NCBI RefSeq assembly: GCF_033568475.1
Contig: NC_133121.1
Location: forward strand, 806,001-870,000
Length of the DNA: 64,000 nt
Direction of reading: 5' to 3'
Source of the DNA: Henckelia pumila
Taxonomy: Eukaryota > Streptophyta > Magnoliopsida > Lamiales > Gesneriaceae
Shown: positions 1-41,280 of the stretch, piece by piece
How the letters are laid out: each line of letters opens with the position of its first letter
Numbering within the stretch: position 1 is the stretch's first letter
Notes under the pieces: model-generated
What the model was told of the DNA's origin: nothing
The model's input: only the letters and a program-made list of their open reading frames with translations
The model's database searches: none
Position numbers and translations under genes: made by a program

Positions 1-1945
1 GTGCTAATTGTGGGACTAGTCAAAATAAAAAAAATATGTAATGTGCGATTTCTTTATAGTGAAAAATAGCAAATAAGAGGACTTTGTTTTGAAGGTTTTT
101 TGGCAATGTTGTTTCAGGTTCCCCAACCTATTTTTTGATGAGCTTTGGGGTCTTGTGAACTTCGAATCACCGTAAGAGGAGATGAAAATATTTTAAGAAA
201 ACTGTAATTTATTACAGGCCTCAGTTTGGTTTCAAATTTTTTATCTTTACAGTTTTACTATTTTATTGTATATTGCAATTGTAATACATGTCCTTCCACA
301 TTCAATTAATATTGTACTTCCTCCTAGTTCCCCAAACAAGAAATTTATTTGTGTCTGTGCATTTGTTAGTGCAGTGTCATCCGTCGATATGCATTGAAGA
401 TTTTTTAATGTCCCAATCAATGGTCTATACCCCCTTTTCTTTTCACGTCATAGATGTATATGATAACTTGTACTCGGCTTCTCCGCTCATTGATGGTGCC
501 GATTTTTACAAATGATGTTATCTGTGATTATTGAGCTTTTATGGAAGACGTTATGTGGTATATGGAAACACATGGATTAAAAAAAGTCCACCATATGCAC
601 CGATCTCCTTGACGCAATCTAATTGCGTTTTTAGATGAGAGAGTAAGCCGTTATTGTCTTATTTGTAAACATATAGTTGAATTTTGATAATTTACATTTG
701 TATTTTTTTCAAAACAAAATAGGAAATATATTATATCAACTTGTGTAAGACAATGAAATCAACGAGGTGATCCCGTATTTGTGTTCCGAAAATCTAGTAA
801 TCGTCAAATAATTTCATATCAACCTTTTTTTTATCATAAAACGATAAACTCAATTGTTCTTTTGTTGGAACGTTAATATTCAACAATAACATATTGTCTT
901 TTGAAATTTATACTGTTTGAGAACTTTTACGATGGACCAACCGATAATGAGATCAACGATATAAACAGAGATGCTTCTGGATACCATTATGTGCTAATTG
1001 GGGGACTATTCAAAACATAAAAAAAGAGTTGTAATGCGCTATTTCTTTATAGTGCAAAATAGTGAATATGAGTACTTTGGTTTTGAAGGTTTTGTGAAAA
1101 TGTCGTTTCAATTCCCCAACCTATTTGTTTATGATTTTTGGGGTCCACTAAACCTCGAAACACCGTAGGAGGAGACGAAAATGTTGTAAGGAAATTGTAA
1201 TTTATGAAAAGCATCAGTTTGGTTTTGAATTTTTTATTTTTAATGTTTTTACTATTGTATTGTATATTTCAATTGTAAAAAATGGCCTTACATATTCAAG
1301 TATTATTATACTCCGTCCTTATTCCCCCAACAAAAAATCTATTGGTGCATGTGCATTTGTTAGTGCCATTCGTCGAAATGCATTGTAAATTTTTTAATGT
1401 CCCAATCAATGGTCTATACCTCTATGTTTCGACGTCATGTATGTATATGATAACTTGTATTCCGCTCCCCCGCTCATTTATGGTGCCGATTTTATATGTG
1501 ACTACGGAGCTTTTATGGAAGACGTTATATATAGAAACACATGGATTAAAAAAAGTTCACCATACGCACCGTTCCCCTTGAACGCAGTCTACTTGCATTT
1601 TTAGATGAGAGAGAGTAAACAATAAACCAATCGATAATGAGATCAACGATATAAACAGAGACGCTCATGGAGACCATTATGTGCTAATCGTGGGACTAGT
1701 CAAAATAAAAAAGAGGTGTAATGTGCGATTTTTTTATAGTGAAAAATAGTGAATAGGAGGATTTTGTTTTGAAGGTTTTTTGGCAATATCGTTTCAGGTT
1801 CCCAAACCTATTTTTTGATGAGTGTTGGGGTCTTGTGAACTTCGAATCACCGTAGGAGGAGACGAAAATATTTTAAGAAAACTGTAATTTATTACAGGCC
1901 TCAATTTGGTTTCAAATTCTTTATCTTTATAGTTTTACTATTTTA

Positions 1946-2206
1946 TTGTATATTATAATTGTAATACATGTCCTTCCACATTCAATTAATATTGTACTTC
2001 CTCCTAATTCCCCAAACAAGAAATTTATTGGTGTGTGTGCATTTGTTAGTGCAGTGTCATCCATCGATATGCATTGCAGATTTTTTAATGTCCCAATCAA
2101 TGTTTATACCTCCTTTTCTTTCGACGTCATGGATGAATATAATAACTTGTATTTGGCTCCTCCGCTTATTAATGGTGTCGATTTTTACAAAGAATGTTAT
2201 CTGTGA
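1946..2206 (+). pseudogene. Array copy 3 of the unrecognised 86-residue segment
   Basis: This is one of the better preserved copies of the array's coding-like segment: 86 codons from ATG to stop with the landmarks C-A-F-V-S-A-V, R-F-F-N-V-P-I-N and P-P-L-I-N-G. Comparable open copies lie at 2920-3198, 3911-4276, 4915-5175, 6267-6527 and 8426-8686; those in units 1, 2, 7, 9 and 11 are broken. The related copy at 39.4 kb reads on through a further 30 residues where the array copies stop, so the array versions look like truncated relics. No promoter or start context argues for expression. Confidence 0.5.
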
Positions 2207-2459
2207 TTATTGAGCTTTTATGGAAGACGTTATGTGGTATATGGAAACATATGGATTTAAAAAAGTCCACCATATGCACAAATCTCCTTGAACGCAATCT
2301 AATTGCGTTTTTAGATGAGATGGTAAACCATTATTGTCTTATTTGTAAACATATAGTTGAATTTTAATAATTTACATTTGTATTTTTTTAAAAAAAATAG
2401 AAAATATATTATATTCAACTTGGGTAAGACAATGAAATCAACGAGGTGATCCAGTATTT

Positions 2460-2815
2460 GACCTTTAGATTTCTAAAAGGTTAATAAATTTAGGTTTTTG
2501 AAAGGTCAATAATGCTTGAGTTTCTGAAAGGTTAATAACCTTTCTGAAAGGTCAAATAACATTTGATATGTTGAAAGGACACTGACCCTTGGCATACTGA
2601 AGGATCATTTTCCTATAAACACTTGACCTCGTTTCAAAATTTACAACTTTGGGAAACCAATTTTCACTCTATCTCTCTTCTCTCGATTTTTTTCTGAGCT
2701 ATTTCTTTCCAAGTCATGATAAAGTTCAGGTAATGTTCAGTTCGCCTGTATCGTACTTTGTGCTAATTTGTTGCAGGTATCATCGTTATATCCTGAAAAA
2801 CTATCGTCTACAGTA
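2460..2815. other. Foreign segment replacing the middle of an array unit
   Basis: Between unit 3 and unit 4 the usual spacer stops after GATCCAGTATTTGA. About 355 bp without similarity to the other units follows, and the unit resumes at AAACCTCGAAACACC. The segment starts with short direct repeats built on GAAAGGT(T/C)AATAA at about 2460-2570, then a pyrimidine-rich stretch at 2660-2710. The step between units stays about 970 bp, so the segment replaced array sequence instead of adding to it. I see no terminal repeats or target duplication. Its origin is unknown. Confidence 0.6.
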
Positions 2816-5294
2816 AACCTCGAAACACCAGGAGACGAAAATGTTTTAGGGAAACTGTAATTTATTACAGGCCTCGGTTTGGTTTCGACTTCTTTATCTT
2901 TACAAGATTTATTATTTTATTGTATATTGTAATTGTAATACAGGCTCTTCCACATTCAAATATTATTATACTCCCTCCTAATTCCCCCAACAAGAAATCT
3001 ATTGGTGTGCGTGCATTTGTTAGTGCAGTGAAATTTGTCGAAATGTATTGCAGATTTTTTAATGTCCCAATCAATGGTCTATACCCCTTCTGTTTCGACG
3101 TCATGGATGTATATAGTAACTGTATTAGGCTCCTCCGCTCATTGATGGTGCCGATTTTTACAAATAAGATGTTATCTGTGACTACGGAGCTTTTATGAAA
3201 GACGTTATGTGGTATATAAAGACACATGGATTAAAAATGTCCACCATATGCACCGATCCCCTTAAACGCAATCTAATTACATTTTTTTATGAAATGTAAG
3301 ACGTTATTGTATTATTTGAAAACATAAAATGGAATTTTTATCATTTATATTTGTATTTATTTTTTGTTTTTTTAATGAGAAATATATCATATCAACTTGA
3401 GTAAGACCATGAAATCAACCGAAGTGATCCAATAATTGAGTTCCGACAATCCAGTAATTGGCAAAAATGATTTCATATAAACCTTTTCTTGATCTTAAAA
3501 TGATAAAATCGGTTGTTCTCTTGTTGCGACGCTGATATTCAATAATAACGTATTGTATTTTGAAATTTATATCGTTTTAGGGCTTTTACGATGTACCAAC
3601 CGATAATGAGATCAACGAATAAAGACGCTCATCGATATCATTATCTGCCAATTGTGGGACTAGTAAAAAAAAGTGTAATGCGTGATTTCTTTATAGTGAA
3701 AAAATATGAAGGAGAGGACTTTGGTTTTGAAGGCTTTGTGTCATTTGTCAATGTCGTTTCAGTTCTTCAACCTATTTGTTGATGAGTTTTGGGCTACAAT
3801 GAACTTCGAAACACCGTAGGAGGAGACGAAAATATTTTAAGGAAACTGTAATTTATTACATGCCTCAGTTTGGTTTCAAATTCTTTATCTTTACATGATT
3901 TACTATTGTATTGTATATTGTAATTGTAATACATGTCCTACCACATTCAAGTATTATTATACTACCTCCTAATTCCCCCAACAAGAAATCTGTTGTTGTG
4001 TGTGCATTTGTTAGTGTAGTGTCATCCGTCGAAATGCATTGCAGATTTTTAAATGTCCCAATCAATGGTCTATACCCCTTCTGTTTTGACGTCATGGATG
4101 TATATGATAACTTGAATTCGGATTCTCCGCTCATTGATGGTGCCGATTTTTGTAAATTATGTTATCCGTTACTACAGAGCTTTTATGGAAGAAATTATGT
4201 GGTTACTGTGGTATATGAAAACACATGGATTAAAACAAATCTACCATATGCACCGATCCCCTTGAACGTAATCTAATTGCGTTTTTAGATGAGAGGGTAA
4301 GTCGTTATTGTCTTATTTGTAAACATATAGTTGAATTTTGATAATTTATATTTGTCTTACTTTTTTTAAAAAAAATAGGAAATATATCATATCAACTTGA
4401 GTAAGACCATGAAATCAACGAGGTGATCCAATATTTGAGTTTCAAAAATCCACTAATCGCAAATAATTTCATATCAACCTGTTTTTTTTTAATCTTAAAA
4501 CGATAAACTCGATTGTTCTCTTGTTGCAACTCTAATATTCAACAATAACGTATTGTCTTTCAAAATTTAATATTGTTTTAGAGCTTTTACGATAGATCAA
4601 CCGATAATGAGATCAACGATATAAACAGAGACACTCATGTATACCATGATGTGCTAATTGTAGGAATAGTTAATTTTTTTTTAAAAAAGGTGTAATGTGT
4701 GATTTCTTTATAGTGCAAAATAATGAATAGGAAGACTTTGATTTTGAAGGTTTTGAGGCAATGTCGTTTCAGTTATCCAACTTATTTTTTGATGAGTTTT
4801 GGGGTCCAGTGAACCTCGAAACACTGTAGGAGGAGACGAAAATATTTTAAGGAAACTGTAATTTATTACAGGCCTTAATTTTGTTTCAAATTCTTTATCT
4901 TTTACTATTGTATATTGTTATTGTATATTGCAATTGTAATACAGGTTCTTTCATATTCAAGTATTATTATACTCCCTCATAATTCCCCCAACAAAATTTG
5001 TGTGTGTGCATTTGTTAATGCAGTGTCATCCGTTGAAATGCATTGCAGATTTTTTAATGTCCCAATCAATGTTATATACCCCTTCTATTTTGACGTCATG
5101 GATGTATATGATAACTTGTATTCGGCTTCTCCGCTCATTGATGGCGCCAGTTTTTACAAAGCATGTTATCTGTGACTACAGAGCTTTTATGGAAGACATT
5201 ATGTGGTATATGACATATGAATTAAAAAAAGTTTACCATATGCACCGATCCACTTAAGCGCAATCTAATTGCATTTTTAGATGAGATGGTAAGC

Positions 5295-5425
5295 CGTTAT
5301 TGGTTTTGAAGGTTTTGTGGTTTTGAAGGTTTTGTGGAAATAGTCAATATGAGGACTTTGGTTTTGAAGGTTTTGTGGAAATGTCGTTTTTGAAGGTTTT
5401 GTGGAAATGTCGTTTCAATTCCCCA
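5295..5425. repeat. Short internal reiteration in array unit 7
   Basis: The motif TTTTGAAGGTTTTGTGG, which occurs once in other units, appears four times here with variable tails. The sequence jumps from GGTAAGCCGTTATTG (start of the long-unit spacer) straight into this motif, so about 340 bp of the normal unit is missing. This explains the short 6-to-7 step and suggests slippage or template switching at the deletion point. Confidence 0.7.
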
Positions 5426-7454
5426 ACCTATTTGTTGATGATTTTTGGGATCCACTAAACCTCGAAACACCGTAGGAGGAGACGAAAATGTTGTAAGGAA
5501 AGTGTAATTTATTAAAGGCGTCGGTTTGGTTTCGAATTTTTTATCTTTATTATTTTTACTATTGTATTGTATATTGTAATTGTAATACAGACACTTACAC
5601 ATTCAAGTATTATTATACTCCGCCCTTATTCCCCAACAAGAAATCTATTGGTGCATGTGCATTTGTTAGTGCAGTGTCATTCGTCGAAATGCATTTTAGA
5701 TTTTTTAATGTCTCAATCAATGGTCTATACCCCTATTTTCGACATCATGTATGTATATAATAACTTGTAATCTGCTCATTCGCTCATTGATGGTGCCGAT
5801 TTTTTTGAAGGATGTTATATGTGACTACGGAGGTTTTATGGAAGACGTTGTATATATAAACACATGGAATAAAAAAAAGTCCACCATACGCACCAATCCC
5901 CTTGAACGCAGTCAAATTGCATTTTTAGATGAAAGAGTAAGCGATGAACCAACCGATAATGAGATCAACGATAACAACAGAGACGATCACGGAAACCATT
6001 ATATGCTAATTGTGGGACTAGTCAAAATAAAAAAAAGAGGTATGATGTGCGATTTCCTTATAGTGCAAAATAGTGAATAGGAGGACTTTGTTTTGAAGGT
6101 TTTTTACAATGTCGTTTCAGGTTTCCCAACCTATTTGCTGATGAGTTTTGGGATCTTGTGAACTTCAAATCACCGTAGGAGGAGACGAAAATATTTTGAA
6201 AACTATAATTTATTACAGGCCTCAGCTTGGTTTCAAATTATTTATCTTTATAGTTTAACTATTTTATTGTATATTGTAATTGTAATACATGCCCTTCCAC
6301 ATTCAATTAATACTGTACTTCCTCCTAATTCCCCCAACAAGAAATTTATTGGTGCGTGTGCATTTGTTAGTTCAGTGTCATCCGTCGAAATGCATTGCAG
6401 ATTTTTTAATGTCCCAATCAATGGTCTATACCTCTTCTCTTTCGACGTCATGGATGTATATGATAACTTCTATTCAGCTCCTCCGCTCATTGATGGTGCC
6501 AATTTTTACAAAGGATGTTATATGTGATTATGAAGCTTTTATGGAAGACGTTATGTGGTATATGGAAACACATGGATTAAAAAAGTCCACCATATACACC
6601 GATCTTCTTAAACGCAATCTAATTGCGTTTTTAGATGAGAGGGTAAGCCGTTATTATCTTATTTGTAAATATATAGTTGAACTTTGATAATTTACATTTG
6701 TATTTCTTTTTTTAAAAGAAAATAATAAATATATTATATCAACTTGGGTAAGTCAATGAAATCAACGAGGTGATTCAGTATTTGAGTTCTGAAAATCTAG
6801 TAATCTGCAAATAATTTCATATCAACCTTTTTTTTTATATCATAAAACGATAAACTTGATTGTTCTCTTGTTGGGATGTTAATATTCAACAATAACATAT
6901 TGTATTTTGAAATTTATATTGTTTGAGAACTTTTACGATGTGCCAACCAATAATGAGATCAACGATATAAACAGAGATGCTAATGGATACCATTATGTGC
7001 TAATTGGGAGAATAGTTAAAATATAAAAAAAAGATGTAATGCGCGATTTTTTTATAGTGCAAAATAGTGAATATGAGGACTTTGGTTTTGAAGGGTTTGT
7101 GGAAATGTCGTTTCAATTCTCCAACCTATTTTTTGATGAGTTTTGGGGTCCACTAAACCTCGAAACACCGTAGGAGGAGATGAAAATGTTGTAAGAAATT
7201 GTAAATTATTAAAGGCGTTAGTTTGGTTTCGAATTCTTTATCTTGTCTGTTTTTAGTATTGTATGTATATTGCAATTGTAATACAGACCCTTAGGCATTC
7301 AATTATTATTATATTTCGTCATTATCCCCTCAACAAGAAATCTATTGGTGATTGTGAATTTGTTAGTGCAGTGTCATTCGTCGCAATGCATTGTAAATTT
7401 TTTAATGTCTCAATCAATGGTCTATACCCTTATGTTTCGACGTCATATATGTAT

Positions 7455-7909
7455 TGTTGGGAATTTTCATATAACTTTAATCCATAATCCATCATGTTAA
7501 ATCGTCAAGAATAAACTGTAAACTGAAGCGGAAGCGTACCTGAATCCATAACAATAAGTATTTGTAGATCTGCATGGTTTGGCCTTCCAGATCAACACGA
7601 TTTGTTTTGAGAGTCCTTTAAATTTTCTCTCGCTCTCTAACTATCGAAGAGAATAAATGTGTCTATGTAGACGTCGTGTGATTTGAGGATCATAACCCTT
7701 TATTTATATTATGGGATTCTATTTAAGCCAATCAATCAAATAGAAAAACTCACTAGTATATACACATTAAAGACCACACCCTTTTAGATACATTAAAGCC
7801 AAATAAACCAAAACTTTATTTAGATCACTTTTATGGGCTAACTTTATTTGACAGTCCACAATACATAATTATTTACATATAAGCTGAACGTTGGATTTAT
7901 GATCCAACA
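7455..7909. mobile_element. Solo LTR of an LTR retrotransposon, Copia-like
   Basis: A 455-bp segment begins TGTTGGGA and ends GATCCAACA, with TGTTGG/CCAACA as short terminal inverted repeats. It is flanked on both sides by the 5-bp target duplication TGTAT (7450-7454 and 7910-7914). It interrupts array unit 9; removing it restores the unit. No internal retrotransposon sequence remains, as expected after recombination between two LTRs. It contains an AT-rich TATA-like stretch near 7700. Superfamily assignment rests on its end sequence and size, so Copia is likely but not proven. It is younger than the array unit it splits. Confidence 0.88.
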
Positions 7910-9737
7910 TGTATATGATAACTTGTATTCCGCTCATCCGCTCATTGATGATGCCGATTTTTATAAAGGATGTTATATGTGACTACGGAGCTTTTATGAA
8001 AGACGTTGTATATAGAAACACATGGATTAAAAAAAGTCCACCATACGCATCGATCCCCTTGAACGCAGTCTAATTGCATTTTTAGATGAGAGAGTAAACG
8101 ATGAACCAACCGATAATGAGATCAACGATATAAACACAGATGCTCATGGTGACCATTATGTGCTAATTGTGGGACTAGTCAAAATAAAAAAAGAGGTGTA
8201 ATGTGCGATTTCTTTATAGCGCAAAATAGTGAATATGAGGACTTTGTTTTGAAGATTTTTTGGCAATGTCGTTTCAGGTTTCCCAACCTATTTGTTGATG
8301 AGTTTTGAGGTTTTGTGAACCTCGAATCACCGTAGGAGGAGACGGAAATATTTTAAGGAAACTGTAATTTATTACAGGCCTCGGTTTGGTTTCAAATTCT
8401 TTATCTTTACAGTTTTACTATTTTATTGTATATTGCAATTGTAATACATGTACTTCCACATTCAAGTAATATTGTATTTCCTCCTAATTCCCCCAACAAG
8501 AAATTTATTGGTACATGTGCATTTGTTAATGCAGTGTCATCTGTCGAAATGCATTTCAGATTTTTTAATGTCCCAATCAATGGTTTATACCCCTTTTCTT
8601 TCGACGTCATGGATGTATATGATAACTTCTATTTGGCTCCTCCGCTCATTGGTGATGCCGATTTTTGGAAAGGATGTTATCTGTGATTATGAAGTTTTTA
8701 TGAAAGACTTTATGTGGTATATGGAAACACATGGATTAAAAAAAATCCATCATGTGCACCGATCCCCTTGAACGCAATCTAATTGCGTTTTTAGATGAGA
8801 GGATAAGTCGTTATTGTCTTATTTGTATACATATAGTTGAATTTTGATAATTTACATTTGTCTTTGTTTTTAAAACAAATAGGAAAGGTATTATATCAAC
8901 TTGGGTAAGACAATGAAATCAACGAGGTGATAACATATTTGAGTTTTGAAAATCCAGTAATCGACAAATAATTTCATGTCAATTTTTTTATTTTTAAAAC
9001 GATAAACTCGATTGCTCTCTTCTTGCGACGCTAATATTCAACAATAACATATTGTATTTTAAAATTTATATTTTTTTAGAGCTTTTACGATGGACCAACC
9101 GATAATGAGATCAACAATATAAACAGAGACGCTCATGGATACCATGTGGGACTTGTCAAAATAATAAAAAAAAAAAGGTGTAATATGTGATTTATTTATA
9201 GTGCAAAATAGTGAATAAGAGAATTTTATTTAGAAGGTTTTGTGGCAATGTCGTTTCAGTTTTTCATTCTATTTGTTGATGAGTTTTGGGGTTCAGTGAA
9301 CCTCGAAACACCTTAAGAGGGGATAAAAATATTTTAAGAAAACTGTAATTTATTACAGACCTCAATTTGGTTTCAAATTATTTATCTTTTACTATTGTAT
9401 TATATATTGCAATTGTAATACATGTCATTTCACATTCAAGTATTATTATACTATCTCCTAATTTCCTCAACAAGAAATCTATTGTCGTGTTTGCATTTGT
9501 TAGTGCAGTGTCATCCGTCAAAATGATTGCAGATTTTTTAATGTTCTGATCAATGGTCTATACCCCTTTTATTTTGACTTCATAGATGTATATGATAACT
9601 TGTATTCGGCTCATCCGCTTATTGATAGTGCCAATATTTACAAAAGATGTTATATGTGACGACATTATGTGATATATGGAAACACATGGATTAAAAAAAA
9701 TCCACCATATGAACCAATCCCTTGAATGGTTTTGAGA

Positions 9738-10466
9738 ACAATGGTTTTATTTATGTTTTGTCTTGTTTCTACTCTACTTTTATTTCGAAGATTTGTAAAT
9801 AATAATTAATGATTTTGTCTTCTCAGTCAATAGCGTGTTGCATTAACTATATTTTTTATTATGTAACAAAAATATTTTAAAATTGTGATTTTAAAGTAAT
9901 TTGTGTTTTTTTTAAAAAAAACATTGAAACAATTACGGTGTAATATTTCGTAAATCCTTATCCAGGTTGAGTAATAAATATTAAATTTAAGTTTAATTTT
10001 ATATTATGCTATTATATATATATCTATATTAAAAAAATTTAATTAACTACAATAACATTGAAGGAAGAAAATAGAAGTTAAAAGACTCAATGTCTTTCAA
10101 GTTCAAGTTATAGTAAATACAATACACACTATCCCCATGTTCTAACGCATGAATCATGATGTTATTAATTTTTAGGCAGCTATTGATCTTTATTTTTTGG
10201 TGTCTAGCTAGCATCCTCTTCTTGATTTTGAAGACATAAATATAAATAAATAAATAAATAAACAAAAATCCAGAATCTCGGCACTTCATTGTAGGAAGAG
10301 GTTTTCTAAATTTATAAATTAGAAATTTTAGTGAAAAATAAAAACATATTAATAATACTTATAATATATATTTTATTAGAAGTTTAATAACAATAGAAGT
10401 CTTAAATTTTTAATCAAAATTTTCTTTGTTATGAATAGTATCAACAGGTACATACAGATATTTATA

Positions 10467-10467
<1 letters not shown>
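9738..10467. other. AT-rich intergenic DNA, no gene seen
   Basis: After the array fades at about 9737 the sequence is low-complexity AT-rich DNA with scattered poly-A and poly-T runs. The only open frames are short and compositionally biased, and none resembles a known protein. Confidence 0.6.

Positions 10468-10547
<80 letters not shown>
10468..10547. repeat. (ATT)n microsatellite
   Basis: About 26 uninterrupted ATT trinucleotides form an 80-bp pure simple repeat. Length variation between individuals would be expected. Confidence 0.97.
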
Positions 10548-10698
10548 CTCTAAATAAAATAAAATTTATTTTAAGCGACAATTTTTTTAATTTGATAATA
10601 CTATTATATCTGTATCAGTGATTAATTTGATCAGCAATGTTTACGAGGTAAAAATAACTTTTTTGATTCACTAATTTTTCTTAGTTAGGATTTTGGTC

Positions 10699-11325
10699 CA
10701 CTGAAATTTTAATTTTTTGTTTTAGTGTACTAGCTTTGAAATATATATATTTTTTGGCTTATTGGGGGTATTTCGTCGGAATGCGGGAGAGAAAACGAAA
10801 AATGCCAAAAAATTGAAAATTTAGAATTATTCGATTTGATATAAGTAATTGGACAAAAATAGGCAACAACTAAAAGTTAGAAAACAAAATTTTAAAATAA
10901 TATATTTAGTTGTGATGCCGATATTCCGATAATAGGTTAACCAGGAGACGTGTTGATAGTTTGAAAAATGACATTGATTAAATAATTTTTTTTTATTTAT
11001 GATCTTTCTTTCACTGAAATTTTAATTTTTTGTTTTAGTGTACTAGCTTTGAAATATATATATTTTTTGGCTTATTGGGGGTATTTCGTCGGAATGCGGG
11101 CGAGAAAACGAAAAATGCCAAAAAAATTGAAAATTTAGAATTATTCGATTTGATATAAGTAATTGGACAAAAATAGGCAACAACTAAAAGTTAAAAAACA
11201 AAATTTTAAAATAATATATTTAGTTGTGATGCCGATATTCCGATAATAGGTTAACCAGGAGACGTGTTAATGATAGTTTGAAAAATAACATTGATCAAAT
11301 AATTTTTTTTTATTTATGATCTTTC
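10699..11325. repeat. Two-copy tandem duplication, 313-bp period
   Basis: The block starting CACTGAAATTTTAATTTTTT at 10699 is repeated from 11012 with very few differences (for example GGGAGAG versus GGGCGAG, and a 3-bp indel near the end). The high identity indicates a recent duplication. No coding sequence or terminal inverted repeats are visible. Confidence 0.93.
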
Positions 11326-12320
11326 TTCAAAAATTTTTTTTGCAAAATGAGTTTCAAACATAATGGAAATACAAATACTAAACAAAGAGAAAAATTGAGA
11401 AGATTATATTTCAAATCATGATCAAACAAATGTTATTTAGTTAAATAATTATGATGTTGAGATTAAGTTTTTCCAGGTAAACTTTTTCGGAGGATCGGAT
11501 TTGAACCAGGAGTTTCCTTTAATATTGGTTAGCCTTGCATCTCCATTTTAACTCACTATTGACCTTGAATGAACGATCCTACTTCACTTTATTTCAAGGT
11601 TTCTTTTCTTTTCTTTTGGAGGAGGAGGACATTTGAGGGTTTCTACTGCTCTAATTAAAACACGATAATTTTTTTCTCTGAAATTGTGTAAATCATTAAT
11701 ATTCATGATTAATAGCTAGCGACGATTGATTTCTATACATGTTCATGCCAAATATACCTGTAGACATTACTATATTTGCAATTATTATTCAATGTGTGCG
11801 CGTGTTAGGTAGCGACCTAAATTTTTAGGTGGTGTAGAAAATTGATACATGTTATTAATTAATGAACATCGATCTATGCGTTTAAATTTGCGTTCGATTG
11901 ATAAAACTCATGATATTCCAATTTTTAAGAAAATTATAAAACGTAATTAATATACGTGCATCAAATTAAAAAAATAATAATGGCAGATCATGTTTTGTGA
12001 TAACTAATTATATATATTAGTTTATTGATGCACGTGTTGCGTGGTTATATAATATTTTTATATTAATTTGATTTATATTCAAATAAGAGTAATATCTAGA
12101 ACTAATTTGTAATTTAAAATATCGAAATTAAAAAAAAAAAGAAATTATATAGAGAGAGATATCAAGGACACACGTAAATATCCAAGTATATAGGTTTAGA
12201 AAACCAATTTTCAGAAAATGAAATATAATAATGTATAATAATTTCATTCACTTAATTGCTTCTGAAATTACGCTTACGTGCATTCATATTTCATTTACAT
12301 ACCGTAAATTCACGATTCTT
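11326..12320. other. Intergenic DNA upstream of the DUF538 gene
   Basis: AT-rich sequence without a supportable gene. The last few hundred bases before 12320 probably hold promoter elements of the downstream gene, but no named cis-element can be defended beyond the TATA box listed separately. Confidence 0.5.
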
Positions 12321-21344: not shown

Positions 21345-21562
21345 TAGAAGCTCGCTTTAACAATAAACGTTCTGTAGAAATATCAAATTTTAGCATGTTA
21401 AGTCACTTACTGTTCCTGTACGTGATAAAAAATCTAACTGCAGATGTGCATTTTTGAGCGCGGTTGCTCGCGTTAAAATATACTATAGAAGTTTAAACAT
21501 CCACATCAATTGTGCAAACAACTATCGATTTGATGTTGTTAACATATTCGATAACTTGTATT
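21345..21562 (+). pseudogene. Diverged relic of the array's unrecognised protein family
   Basis: Conceptual translation gives E-I-S-N-F-S-M-L near 21380, C-A-F-L-S-A-V near 21442, then Y-Y-R-S-L-N-I-H-I and F-D-V-V-N-I-F-D-N-L-Y-S-V near 21555. It aligns in order with the copy at 39.5 kb (E-I-S-D-Y-H-I-L ... C-A-F-V-S-M-V ... F-D-V-V-D-V-V-D-N-L-Y-S-V). Reading it needs a frame slip between the first and second blocks, so it is decayed. It is the most diverged member in the window and presumably the oldest. Confidence 0.6.
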
Positions 21563-21576
21563 CGGTTAGGAGAAGT

Positions 21577-21609
21577 TTGAACAATAAAAAATGACAAGAT
21601 TATCAACAA
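21577..21609. repeat. Left copy of a 33-bp direct repeat
   Basis: GAACAATAAAAAATGACAAG followed by ATTATCAACAAAA is repeated exactly at about 23430-23462, with looser similarity (GTTAGG...GGAG) just before both copies. About 1.85 kb lies between them, including the family relic at 21.8 kb and the Tourist-like MITE. The pair could mark a duplication or an inserted block. Confidence 0.75.
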
Positions 21610-21611
21610 AA

Positions 21612-22208
21612 AAATGAGTTGTTCGCGCGAACATAATGTGGTGCACACGAAATCCATGCACGGGACCTAGTGTGCGGTGGATCATTCTATGTATATATCA
21701 CACTATTCAAGTTATTGAAGAACAATTTTTTTATTCGCCCAGAACCTAATTTATCTCAGGACCGCCTTATTGCACCATCTTAATTAAGAAGGTTTTGCAG
21801 AAATCTCATATTCTAGCTGACTTTCTATCACATGTTTGCAACAAACAAGATGTTGATGTGTGTGCATTTGTAAGCAATGTTGCATGTGTTGAGATGGGGT
21901 ACCGGATTTCTAATATCAAAATTAGAGGTTATGAATCTTACTGATTTGACGTGGTAGATGTGGTCGATAATTTGTATTATGTTCCGCCTCTCCCCGAAAA
22001 TACAATTATGAATGTCACGGTAATTGTTGGTCTCATTTCATTCGTTTTTTCGAGTTTCCCCCCGAAAATACAATTATCTTTAGAGTTGCATCGGACATTT
22101 TGGCTAGAGTTGCATACCATGTCAAATACAAATAGGCGGCGGCTGTTCATATTCACAAGTACACGAGGACAAGCATGCACACCCTTAACCTGCAAAGAAT
22201 ATATATGA
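21612..22208 (+). pseudogene. Second relic of the unrecognised protein family, with flanking element sequence
   Basis: The block starts with GAGTTGTTCGCGCGAACATA and GTGGTGCACACGAAATCCAT, the same sequence that borders the palindromic element at 39-40 kb, and continues with AACCTAATTTATCTCAGGAC. The coding-like part from about 21790 reads Q-D-V-D-V-C-A-F-V-S and V-E-M-G-Y-R-I-S-N-I-K-I-R-G-Y-E-S-Y, then D-V-V-D-V-V-D-N-L-Y-Y-V-P-P-L. After P-P-L the sequence differs from the 39-kb copy and continues open to about 22208 without a recognised domain. In-frame stops make it non-functional. Confidence 0.65.
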
Positions 22209-23462: not shown

Positions 23463-26090
23463 GATGATACAATGTTTGTGTGAGCAGCAAATTATCCCAA
23501 GTGAGTCACAATTATCAAAATGCTGAGTTGGCTGCTGGATAATAATTGAGTTGATACTTCTTATTAGCTATATATTTATATAGCTGCATATGCCTGAATG
23601 AAAATATGGACTAAAGGAAAGGTCATGAGTTCAATTACTATGAGTTTTAGGAGCAATCATTACAAGGGAACTGCTAGATCTATGTGATCTCCAATTCCGT
23701 GTGCTACTGTCTATTACACTGTGATTGCAACATGGCTTTGAAGATTTGTTTTAAAAATTCAGGTGCACCATTATTATCAAGTGTAGCTCTTGTTGGAGCG
23801 GCGAGCTTTCTGTCCTTGAGAATCTTTTGTCAATGATAAAAATATTCACTATCAACCTTTTGATGTGTCACTGTGGGGCATGCAGCTACCTGTATTGTCT
23901 CATGTCTCAGCATTTCCTGTTGGAAGTTTCATGCTTATCATCTAGCTAAGGGATAGAGTGATTGAGGTATTGCGGGAACTTGCTTTATTAGGCTGTCAGG
24001 TTCTGAAATGTGTTAATTGTTTGAATCTCTGTTTTTTTGTTGTTAATGGATTAAAGGTCATTCATTCTAGAAACGAAATATTTACTATAATAACTGATTA
24101 ACTGTACTTAGCACGGTCATTGTATCTCTGCATTTTTTCTTATTCGACATGGGGGCAATGAAATTTAAGTTGTTTACAGGTGTCTTGCTATATTGCTTCA
24201 AGTTTGATAGATGCTCATCGTTTGGTACACTACATCTTGATATCCAAGGTGGTCTCGTTGAAGAGATTACTGATTGTGTCCTTTGCTTTGTTCATTTGTT
24301 TTTGGTGTATTTTATTTCAAATATTCTCAAAGAAGAGCGGGGAAGTTGCTTAATATGCCTCAACATGATGCTTGTTTAACATTGTTTTTCAGTTATATGG
24401 TGGAATTCAGAGATATTCAGAACTATTTCCAGACGGTGGCTTTTTTCAGGGGAAAATTTGTTTTTGATCATCGGTATATCTTTTTCATTACATCTACATT
24501 TATTCCATCAATCCGACATTTACTGCGACCATGGCATAGTTAATGCTTTTAGTTAACAATGTTCTGGTTTCTAGATATCTTTTTTGTCAAATTTAACATT
24601 GTTTTCTTCATGTCCTTTTAACTTTTTAAACTGTTAACTAGGATTTCTTTATGTCCTTTTCTATCTTAGAGAATTGATCTTTCAGATGTAATTTGGTTCT
24701 TGGTTCTTCTTTGTATTTTGTAGTGCTCTTTCTCAAACTTTGTGCAAATGTGTAAAATCAATACCAAGCAATAGCTACTGTTTCTGTATAACAAATTTAA
24801 ACTTGAAATGACTTTCAGATATAAAGCTAACTTATAAAGACAGAGGAACAAATGATATTCATTTTTGTATATCATTACAAAGAAAACTGATACATCTTTA
24901 TAGTTACAATGGGCATATCTCACCAGGAAATCAAGAGAAAAAAATATTAACTTACCTAATCTATACAACTGAGATATCTATCAATCAATTTAAAATTTCT
25001 ATCAAATCATGTAAATTGATTCTAATTACTTTAAATTAGTACTAATTGATTTAAATAAATCTACACTAACATCCCCTTCTTTTGCATAACTCGTTAACTT
25101 TGGCCAATTTCCATGAAGGATTATATCTCATATTTTAATATTTTCGTCTATTTATGTCAGTGTTTCAGTTGGGAGCTCAGTCACTAACATCTATGGAACT
25201 TGTCTTCTGTGTGCTTGCATTATCCTCTTTTATCATGGAGGAAAGGTGAGGTCTGTATGCTTTTGCATTCTCGTATTGGCTTGTATTTTCTATATATTCT
25301 TGTCCCTTTCAGGCATATAATTTTCATAGTAATGTTGCAATAACCTTTAGAAAAAGGTTCTTGATAATATTTTAAATTGTAGAAAGTCACTCAGAAAAGC
25401 AGCATTCGCATCATATAATTTATGCATCTAAAAGTATGGTGGAAGAAATCTAGACCAATTCAATCAAAATAAATTCATATCAGAGATTTTTTGTATTCTC
25501 AATTATATGAATTCTGGTTTTAGCGCAGAATCTTCAAGATTAACATAGAAATATTGATTTAATGTTCATCTAAGTAAAAATGCCTTGAAGAAACTCTTCA
25601 TGGCATATCCGAGACGAAAGAAATAAAGAGTAGATACCTGTACCATTGAGAATGGGTTCCATGAATGTGCTGGATAGTTAGATTAAGATCATGGGAAATT
25701 CAAATTGATTATTGCAATCATGACCAACACGAGTAGATCTCCAGAATTATTAACTGGAAGCGAAAATATCTCAAGGAAACTCTCCCATGCAAAAACAGGG
25801 AGCTGAGAGTCTGAGCCACTCACTAGATGTTCATATGTTGTCTAACAACAAACTATTTTCAAGATTGTACCTACAGGCATGATGGATAATGTAAATGGAT
25901 TTAGTACTTGCTGCGCCAGGAGAAAAAGTTCCCGCTATGTAGCATACAGGAGAAATGTCTCACTAATATTTCATATAGGACAGACCCTATCTAAATGTGT
26001 GGAATGTAACTTGTGGTTTATCCTGCAATACTTCCCTTTCGGAAAGCGACTAGTTTCATTTTTGAATACTGCATTGACATTCTTTCTGTG
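23463..26090. other. Unassigned region upstream of the ECHIDNA pseudogene
   Basis: Several stretches are less AT-rich than the background (about 23760-23830, 24150-24480, 25150-25250, 25880-26090) and carry open frames of 75-105 codons bordered by splice-like AG or GTGAGG. None translates to a domain I recognise. They may be decayed exons or introns of the gene whose relic follows. Confidence 0.35.
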
Positions 26091-38790: not shown

Positions 38791-39439
38791 TTCAAATTCA
38801 AGATTTTAGTCATAGGTAGGACAACCAACTTTTTGCATTATTTAGATGGATGTAACATAATTGTAACATTACAAAAAATTAGTTTATTTTAGTTATTTAA
38901 TTTAATTATCGTCCCGTTATATTCTATATTTGAAAATTGAAATCATTGAACACATTCCTCAAACCAAACATGATAAATTCATGGTAAACCAGTCTAAGTA
39001 AAAACTTTGTCCATAAGCTAAACAAGCAATAACTAATTTTTTTTTTTACCACATTATGAAAGGGGAGAGGACTGTAAAGCCATTTCCAAAAACCTGGATC
39101 AAACAGTCAGGGGCGGTTCTCAGATAAATTAGGTTCGGGGCGAATAAAAAAACAGTGTTTCAATAACTTGAATAGTACTGTGATATATATATAGAATGAT
39201 CCACTCAGGAATTTCGTGTGTACCGCGTGATGTTCGCGCGAACATCTAAAAATTAAAAATTAAAAACTGAGTAGTTCGCGGGAACATAATGTGGTGCACA
39301 CGAAATCGCGAACATCTAAAAATTAAAAATTAAAAAATGAGTTGTTCGCGCGAACATAATGTGGTGCACATGAAATCTATGCACCAGACCTAGTGTGCAG
39401 TGGATCATTATAATTTATCTCAGGACCGCCTTATTGTAC

Positions 39440-39838
39440 CATCTTAATCAAGAAGGTTTTGCAGAAATATCAGATTATCACATTCTAGCTGACTTTCTAT
39501 CTCCTGTTCGCAACCAACGAGATGTTGATGTGTGTGCATTTGTAAGCATGGTTTTCTGTGTTGAAATGGGGTATCGGATTTCTAATATCAAAATTAGAGG
39601 TTATGAATCTTACTGTTTTGACGTGGTAGATGTCGTTGATAATTTGTATTCTGTTCCGCCTCTCCTCGTTGATTCCGAGACATACGAAAGTGATGTTCTG
39701 TGTCGAATTGGAGCCCGAGTAAGTGATGTTATGTGGTACGCCAAGGAATATGGGTTAAAAGCTTCTACCATGTGCTCTATGAATAACATCTTATCCTCCT
39801 ATCGAAATGTGAGAAGAGATTGCGTTCAAGTGGATTAG
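39440..39838 (+). pseudogene. Left-arm copy of the unrecognised protein family, open frame
   Basis: An open frame gives the longest intact version in the window: A-E-I-S-D-Y-H-I-L-A-D-F-L-S, then D-V-D-V-C-A-F-V-S, V-E-M-G-Y-R-I-S-N-I, Y-C-F-D-V-V-D-V-V-D-N-L-Y-S-V-P-P-L, and D-V-M-W-Y-A-K-E-Y-G-L-K-A-S-T-M-C. Frame preservation over at least 115 codons suggests this was once a real protein. After about 39777 the frame reads into the palindrome spacer (reverse of the partner arm), so the C terminus shown is artificial. Function unknown. Confidence 0.55.
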
Positions 39839-40180
39839 AGCACATGGTAGAAGCTTTTAACTCATATTCCTTGGCGTACCACATAACATCACTTACTCGG
39901 GCTCCAAGTCGGCACAGAACATCACTTTCGTATGTCTCGGAATCAACGAGGAGAGGCGGAAAAAAATACAAATTATCGACGACATCTACCACGTCAAGAC
40001 AGTAAGATTCATAACCTCTAATTCTATTTTAGAAATCCGGTACCCCATCTCAACACAGACAACAGTGCTTACAAATGAACACACATCAACATCTCGTTGA
40101 TTGCAAACAAAAGATAGAAAGTCAACTAGAATGTGATAATCTGATATTTCTGCAAAACCTTCTTGATTAAGATGGTACAA
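39777..40180 (-). pseudogene. Right-arm copy of the unrecognised protein family
   Basis: Inverted copy of the left arm. On the minus strand 40180-39986 encodes the N-terminal half (H-L-N-Q-E-G-F-A-E-I-S-D-Y-H-I-L) and 39992-39777 the C-terminal half (D-V-V-D-N-L-Y ... D-V-M-W-Y-A-K-E-Y-E-L-K). It continues with N-P-L-E-R-N-L-F-S-H-F-D-R-R-I, a block also found in array units (P-L-E-R-N-L-I-A-F-L-D-E-R-V). The two halves are in different frames, so this copy is broken. Confidence 0.6.
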
Positions 40181-40430
40181 TAAGGGGCAGTCCTAAGATA
40201 AATTAGGTCCTGAGCGAATAAAAAAATGGTCCTTCAATAACTGAATAGTGTGATATATATATAGAATGATTCACTGCACACTAGGTCCAGTGCATGGATT
40301 TCGTGTGCACCACATTATGTTCGCGCAAACACCCGCGAACATCTAAAAACATCTAAAAATTAAAAATTTTGCGCGAACATAATGTAGTGCACACGAAATC
40401 CATGCACACTAGTTTGCCGCGGATCAAAAT

Positions 40431-41280
40431 TATATATATATATATATATTTATAAACTAATCGAATATTATTATCAAAGTAAACCACAATATATAATTAA
40501 CAAATTTACACATAATAAATGTTCTACATAATTTCTCAAAAATATCCTATTCAACAACCAATATTATTTAAAATGCACTTTTGTCGCATTTTTTGAAGCA
40601 AATTCGTCATTTTTTAAAATCATTGTACGTACGATGAATAATCGTACTAAAATAAAAATATTTTAACTAAACTCAAGTGCAATATAAAATAGTACTAAAT
40701 AATGAACTAAAAACCGAACAAAAAAACATATATATAGGATAATAATAAATTCGCGTAATATGAATTAATAAAATAAAAATGCAATAATCAATTAATAATT
40801 AATAATTGAAAAAAAATAAAAATGTTACATTTTTTCAACACAATTTCAAATTTGAAATTTAAGTAATCGTCATGGTTTAATTGTATAACAAGTAAGAAAA
40901 ACTTGATATGCCTACTTATGAAGCATGAAAGTTTGTGATAAATTTCGTGTTTAAAATAATTTGTTTGTGGTGATTTAACCCAATTGAAGGAAAAAATTTG
41001 CAATAAAACCGGCCTACAATCAATTTTTTTATATTTTTTATTAACTAAAATTATGTATTAATATAAATATTAAGTAAAAAAATAATCGAGACTCATAAAA
41101 AAAACGAGGCTCTGAACGATAACCCAACCCGCCCTACCTGACGATCACCCGTACAAACAGTCAACAAACACCATCCTTGTATATATTTTTTGATAAATAT
41201 TATTGTTTAAAATAAGAATATTTATTGTATATAATATTGATTTATTTTTTATTATTCATATATTTATATTTATATTTATA
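40431..41280. other. AT-rich intergenic DNA upstream of the ATP-citrate lyase gene
   Basis: Low-complexity A/T sequence. A short frame at 40788-41003 (minus) has no recognisable domain. Promoter elements of the downstream gene probably lie in the last few hundred bases; TATATTTATA-like runs around 41255-41285 are candidates but too repetitive to assign. Confidence 0.45.

Follow-up and report, generated by a model that had tools for sequence, protein, structure and literature searches.

The left part of a 64,000-nucleotide window of genomic DNA (C2:806001-870000; window position p is C2:806000+p) is filled with units that repeat head to tail, and the question raised by this locus is whether the open frames of about 86 codons recurring in these units belong to genes, to a mobile element or to neither. 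The initial annotation, made from the letters alone, had called the unit unrecognised and had judged it to be formerly coding, an amplified gene fragment or element body as opposed to a short satellite. The latter judgement holds, but the unit can be recognised: every copy is a chimera of ~ 187 bp from the 3' end of a long terminal repeat (LTR) and exon fragments of a divergent papain-like cysteine protease. We consider it very likely that the locus is a tandem array, specific to this site, of a dead chimeric pseudogene fragment, and most likely, it is a genomic relic rather than a working gene. No evidence for function was found, and no protein function is proposed.

Extent and structure of the array

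In a self-comparison of window positions 1-12000, head-to-tail matches fill 1-9727, with 78.6-92.5% identity for matches longer than 250 bp, and dissection with five probes, all taken from a single unit, placed the starts of 11 units within the window (near 156, 1151, 1836, 2816, 3797, 4807, 5458, 6159, 7156, 8316 and 9294). The spacing between them is 651-1160 bp, the longest one holding a 455-bp insertion. These results agree with the initial annotation in the count of about eleven units, in their head-to-tail order and in the right end, which lies at about 9727 where 9737 had been given; the array is, however, incomplete in the window. The same dissection extended it leftward by ~ 8.6 kb and nine more units, so that the forward-strand segment 1-9727 is the right-hand 9.7 kb (11 of the 20 units) of an array with 20 LTR-derived blocks that spans ~ 18.3 kb (C2:~797413-815727, window -8587 to 9727). 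The genome searched comprises 885 Mb in 133 contigs, and all 31 DNA matches to the gene part, a number that is a lower bound, fall within C2:798031-815726, that is, at a single locus. Dissection found no inverted copy of the unit within the array, where reverse matches are limited to short stretches in the LTR pieces and in the "mid" piece introduced below. The array is missing from the Tandem Repeats Finder output because the longest period handled there was 500 bp.

Two unit lengths predominate, ~ 990 bp and ~ 700 bp, and what the shorter kind lacks is a "mid" piece of ~ 270 bp. A typical long unit, at 156-1147 on the forward strand, consists of the LTR-derived block (156-343), a fragment of protease exon A (344-649), "mid" (650-917) and a fragment of exon C (920-1147), and a typical short unit, at 1151-1832 on the same strand, of the LTR-derived block (1151-1337), exon A (1338-1611) and exon C (1619-1832). 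Exon C covers the region of the active-site His and Asn (for example, 6934-7152, forward strand). The open frame is exemplified by 8426-8686 on the forward strand, where the first ~ 24 of the 86 codons are LTR sequence, the remainder is the region of the active-site Cys, and the frame is broken afterwards.

Several units are irregular. The one at 1836 ends within "mid", at the start of a long LTR piece (2461-2811, forward strand) that continues into its own 3'-end block at 2816-2997; this longer piece occurs in only two of the 20 units, the other one being at window -8511. In the unit at 4807, "mid" is missing together with most of exon C, the unit at 9294 terminates inside exon A, and the unit at -6159 has an additional partial copy. 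The 455-bp insertion at 7455-7909 resembles a solo LTR (TGTTGGG...CCAACA), is flanked by a 5-bp target-site duplication, TGTAT, at 7450-7454 and 7910-7914, and is younger than its host unit.

Origins of the two parts of the unit

The first part of the unit is an LTR 3' end from a dispersed element, probably of the copia type. A genome DNA search with window 1000-2000 returned at least 39 matches, all to query positions 834-999, an incomplete count given that array copies exist yet are absent from this list (the later DNA search with the gene part does list the array). Eight of the 39 matched loci (L001-L008) were examined. They align to window 2461-2993, the longest alignment, and to the LTR-derived block in 10 or 11 of the window units, and the similarity among them extends upstream into window 2461-2811. 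The terminus CCCAACA is present in five of the eight (L002, L003, L004, L006 and L007) and nearly so in L005, L001 and L008 ending differently or earlier; downstream of this end, no match longer than 100 bp was found between any pair of the eight. At locus L009, two copies of the LTR lie in direct orientation, 5.04 kb apart and 89% identical. Both begin with TGTTAT, the 5' copy ends with CCCAACA and the 3' copy ends differently, and between them there is a match to the Pfam domain gag_pre-integrs (E = 2.4e-6; 27.6 bits, just below the cut-off of 28.4). The paired copies, the TG...CA ends and this domain match are the basis of the assignment. For the 351-bp upstream LTR piece, 26 of the 28 genome matches are outside the array and 2 inside. 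A stretch upstream of the L001 LTR that looks like a leucine-rich repeat receptor kinase is not common to the other seven loci and was taken as a chance neighbour.

The second part of the unit has relatives within the window, as had been noted, and many more across the genome. A separate copy of protease exon A, open over 154 codons, lies at 39374-39838 on the forward strand, with an inverted second copy at 39836-40185 on the reverse strand. The inverted copy and 39429-39779 form an inverted repeat (39429-40185) whose arms measure 188 bp, with 96% complementarity, and 160 bp, with 93%; 56 nucleotides separate the inner arms, and a transcript of this repeat would fold into a long hairpin. Further exon-A fragments are found at 21415-22082 (forward strand), and within them, 21620-21996 shares 88% identity with the arm at 39.9-40.3 kb. 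The same repeats, containing short GCGAACAT-type motifs, flank the protease fragments at both 21596-21996 and 39103-40443, as though one mobile or foldback sequence had carried the two.

The 154-amino-acid frame at 39.4 kb has 117 genome matches, of which 14 are in the array, 7 are nearby on C2 (the query included) and 96 are elsewhere, many of these clustered on C1, C2 and C4. Apart from the inverted repeat and the sister copy at 21.8 kb, the matches are 28-71% identical in protein to the 39.4-kb exon. The relatives have an exon for the Cys region and an exon for the His/Asn region, and the array has a match to each of these in relative L020, with E = 2.6e-8 for exon A and E = 1.7e-10 for exon C (the fragment at 6934-7152); relative L024 is matched by exon C as well (E = 0.004). 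The exon C of L024 scores 25.0 bits against Peptidase_C1 (PF00112; cut-off 20.7), and a segment adjoining an exon-A match, C1:87759393-87759701, scores 34.4 bits in a genome-wide PF00112 search. L041 (19.8 bits) and L051 (17.0 bits) stay below the cut-off, no PF00112 match was obtained for L045 or L035 in a Pfam scan, and of 18 exon-C pieces, four have a PF00112 match at E <= 0.1. A profile built from 18 exon-C sequences retrieved 128 PDB sequences at E <= 1, the best 60 of which are all of the papain/cathepsin type, including cathepsins, papain-like plant enzymes, falcipains and their kin. A phmmer search with the L024 exon C gave 106 matches at E <= 10, with the best 60 papain-type, and both L020 and L024 belong to alignments whose profiles retrieve papain-type PDB chains.

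Read by eye, the 39.4-kb copy has NQ...VCAF, and in most of the relatives read, a His precedes a VxVG or VIVG stretch that is followed by QNS. In L024, Ser stands in place of the Cys, and L045 and L051 have QGS in place of QNS, that is, Gly for Asn. Many array units retain the Cys, in broken frames. Longer frames are open in some relatives (313 amino acids in L045, 272 in L051), and the ratio of nonsynonymous to synonymous substitution rates is 0.60 for the L045-L051 pair and 0.30-0.83 for four short pairs, two further pairs having no synonymous change. Judged by these similarities, the array exons are homologous to members of the papain-like family C1A, and the genome appears to contain a large divergent family of such proteases that Pfam mostly leaves unnamed. 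The protease label rests on the relatives because the five reading frames scanned from the array and window themselves have no papain-family Pfam match. An alternative assignment, to the C-terminal (C-JID) part of TIR-NBS-LRR proteins, was dropped once the Cys/His/Asn pattern and the relatives indicated papain.

Some observations on the dispersed family stand apart from the array. Clusters of family members are located at C4:1.31-1.34 Mb, C1:85.95-85.98 Mb, C4:160.80-160.97 Mb, C2:130.57-130.61 Mb and C1:78.6-78.8 Mb, and four matches on C1, spaced by ~ 3.89 kb, may be another tandem array. In L041 (C2:131075047 region), a 441-codon frame at 511-1836 on the reverse strand fuses a papain-like exon with an NSWG motif, the one just under the Peptidase_C1 cut-off, to coatomer alpha domains (TPR_COPA_B, E = 5.7e-17; COPI_C, E = 1.3e-10). 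In L013 (~ C2:712.7-713.5 kb), a Caulimovirid-type peptidase A3 (PF02160, E = 4.3e-32 and 3.4e-7) at 2538-3398 on the forward strand adjoins a protease-exon fragment and is likely a piece of an endogenous pararetrovirus.

Joints, reading frames and growth of the array

The joint from LTR to gene, located about six codons before the active-site Cys, is alike in all 20 units, barring point changes and small gaps, and because it is common to all of them, it most likely arose once. The protein part upstream of the Cys is absent from every unit. The joint from gene to LTR, where the end of exon C precedes the LTR block, is alike in 18 of the 20 units; the other two (window -8161 and 2811) are preceded by more LTR sequence. 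At this second joint, the exon C and LTR sequences read much alike around CAGTGAAC, and no uninterrupted copy of the gene similar enough to reveal what lies past the joint on the gene side was found.

The reading frames indicate when coding capacity was lost. Compared with the 39.4-kb copy, 17 of the 20 units share a 2-base gap that breaks the frame; in the two LTR-bearing units, this gap is absent but a different one, of 1 base, is present, and a larger deletion makes one unit uninformative. Among units, the sites before the gap vary about equally over codon positions 1, 2 and 3 (32/55, 29/56 and 26/55; p = 0.52). When the most frequent base of each column is compared with the 39.4-kb copy, the sites that differ number 16/55, 17/56 and 26/55 (p = 0.038). 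The zone after the gap (22/41, 14/41 and 24/41; p = 0.065) gives no clear reading. Thus, the comparison by codon position that had been proposed as a check has a divided outcome, with no sign of protein constraint among units and weak evidence of past constraint in the comparison with the 39.4-kb copy, which fits a coding past and a non-coding present. Given the common frame gap and the codon-position test, the protease fragment was probably already dead when amplified. The 86-codon frame is not that of a gene, since LTR sequence makes up its first ~ 24 codons.

Growth of the array is recorded in its self-matches and divergences. Matches of 6060, 4334 and 2621 bp (~ 91% identical) occur at offsets 1692, 3390 and 5092, which equal the summed length of a long and a short unit (~ 1.69 kb) and its multiples. 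Mean divergence, calculated on 16 of the 20 units (the two with the longer LTR piece, the one at 4807 and the one at the end being excluded), is 10.4% between long units (n=10) and 8.7% between short units (n=6), compared with 15.8% between long and short ones. A further self-match, of 2850 bp at offset 10972, corresponds to a block shared with the left edge: the 2.84-kb segment at 2461-5302 (forward strand), which comprises the LTR piece and three units, the third truncated, is 97.2% identical to window -8511 to -5677 and reads as a copy of the left edge placed inside the array.

From these features, we infer the following course of events. A single joint of an LTR 3' end to a protease fragment would have come first, after which a tandem duplication placed the end of exon C next to mid-LTR sequence, presumably at the short alike stretch around CAGTGAAC, and founded the repeat. 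The units would then have multiplied as non-coding DNA, given that 17 of 20 share the frame gap and two more have their own frameshift. Offsets and divergences suggest that one unit lost the "mid" piece and that the resulting pair of long and short units (~ 1.69 kb) spread by unequal crossing-over. Later, the left-edge block would have been copied into the middle and the solo LTR inserted, the array persisting by duplication and drift.

Alternative explanations and broader context

Several observations weigh against this interpretation. The copia assignment comes from one domain match below threshold; in locus L010, a seemingly RNase H-like piece had no Pfam match, and a seemingly integrase-like piece had only weak unrelated ones. 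No 5-bp duplication flanks the founding LTR at the left edge, where TTACA precedes it and AGAAA follows; simple insertion with target duplication is thus unsupported, and the interpretation does not explain how LTR and gene came together. On the protease side, phmmer with the L020 exon C found no papain-type chain (2 chance matches), none of five scanned reading frames from the array and window had a papain-family Pfam match, one of them, in another frame, giving two weak unrelated matches (E = 0.065 and 0.22), and an AlphaFold model of L045 from a 5-row alignment, with a mean predicted local distance difference test score of 40.0, is too poor to support the fold. Finally, frames of at least 84 codons are open in 6 of the 11 window units, the six copies of the initial annotation, and in 11 of all 20, compared with 6.9 of 20 expected in a crude simulation of decay without selection; the copies in this comparison are not independent, three units being recent duplicates of three others.

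This excess of open frames, together with the longer frames of L045 and L051, would be compatible with genes, either small ones in a tandem family or a single long one for a multi-domain protein, with the ~ 86-codon frames as exons translated now or until lately. We regard this as highly improbable because the LTR share of these frames, the lack of any protein part ahead of the Cys, the nearly equal changes over codon positions and the frame gap common to 17 of 20 units all speak against it. Very unlikely, too, is a functional non-coding locus, in which the array, perhaps with the inverted repeat at 39.4-40.2 kb, would yield small RNAs acting on the protease family. The exon-bearing, nearly complementary arms, the large exon family (117 matches) and the longer LTR piece of two units, which might hold promoter sequence, are compatible with such a role, but the 28-71% protein identity of most matches to the 39.4-kb exon leaves little for targeting by small interfering RNAs, and no inverted copy of the unit was found in the array. 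In its fullest form, the array and the inverted repeat 30 kb away would be one small-RNA locus controlling a large, divergent and fast-changing papain-like family, as yet without a name, of this plant lineage, with the LTR as promoter, a proposal to which we give equally little credence.

Papain-like proteases have WAF after the active-site Cys. The family described here resembles the C1A proteases (PF00112) in the Cys, His and Asn regions recognisable by eye and in two relatives above the family cut-off, and differs from them in having AFV, MLV or LLV after the Cys in the members read and in the lack of a Pfam match for most members. Tandemly duplicated pseudogene clusters are a general kind of locus, and the array is like them in consisting of local head-to-tail copies of a broken gene whose family clusters elsewhere in the genome, and unlike them in that the unit is a fragment bounded by an LTR piece, with a dimeric higher-order pattern. 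Satellite DNA typically forms long arrays, usually at several loci, whereas here one locus of 18.3 kb and 20 units was found.

That each unit contains an LTR 3' end could point to an ordinary retrotransposon-derived satellite, LTR-derived tandem repeats of a genome-wide kind; such satellites are reported in a plant by Vondrak et al. (PMC7004042), with arrays that reportedly grow out of short tandem repeats which the dispersed elements already contain. The likeness extends to locally expanded tandem DNA with a part from an LTR retrotransposon. Here, however, an LTR end and a host gene fragment were duplicated together, the host gene makes up most of each unit, and all gene-part matches found lie at one locus, with 20 units in 18 kb, which makes this reading extremely unlikely. 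No description of this array or chimera came up in the portion of the literature covered by our search. In our assessment, the array belongs among the tandem repeats that derive from pseudogenes and retrotransposons; events of this kind are ordinary, and the history of this one is readable.

Genes adjacent to the array encode DUF538, PsbP and S-adenosylmethionine synthetase, the first two of which point to plants. Window 11666-11827 has 83% identity to the sequence immediately left of the array (window -8734 to -8589), and parts of -15553 to -12642 are similar (81-90%) to parts of 23516-25875; these flanking resemblances look like older local duplications around the array. To its right, a 314-bp unit occurs about twice in tandem at 10663-11328 (94% matches), and a TTA microsatellite of 28 units at 10462-10547.

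Overall, the locus is a clear case of the birth of a tandem repeat, in which the founding joint, the duplication joint, the dimer stage and block copying are legible in one 18-kb stretch. It also carries a warning, namely, that recurrent open frames of ~ 86 codons in tandem units can stem from a decayed chimera of retrotransposon and gene, and it points to a large divergent papain-like family that, with PF00112 matching 4 of 18 exon-C pieces, is mostly missed by Pfam.

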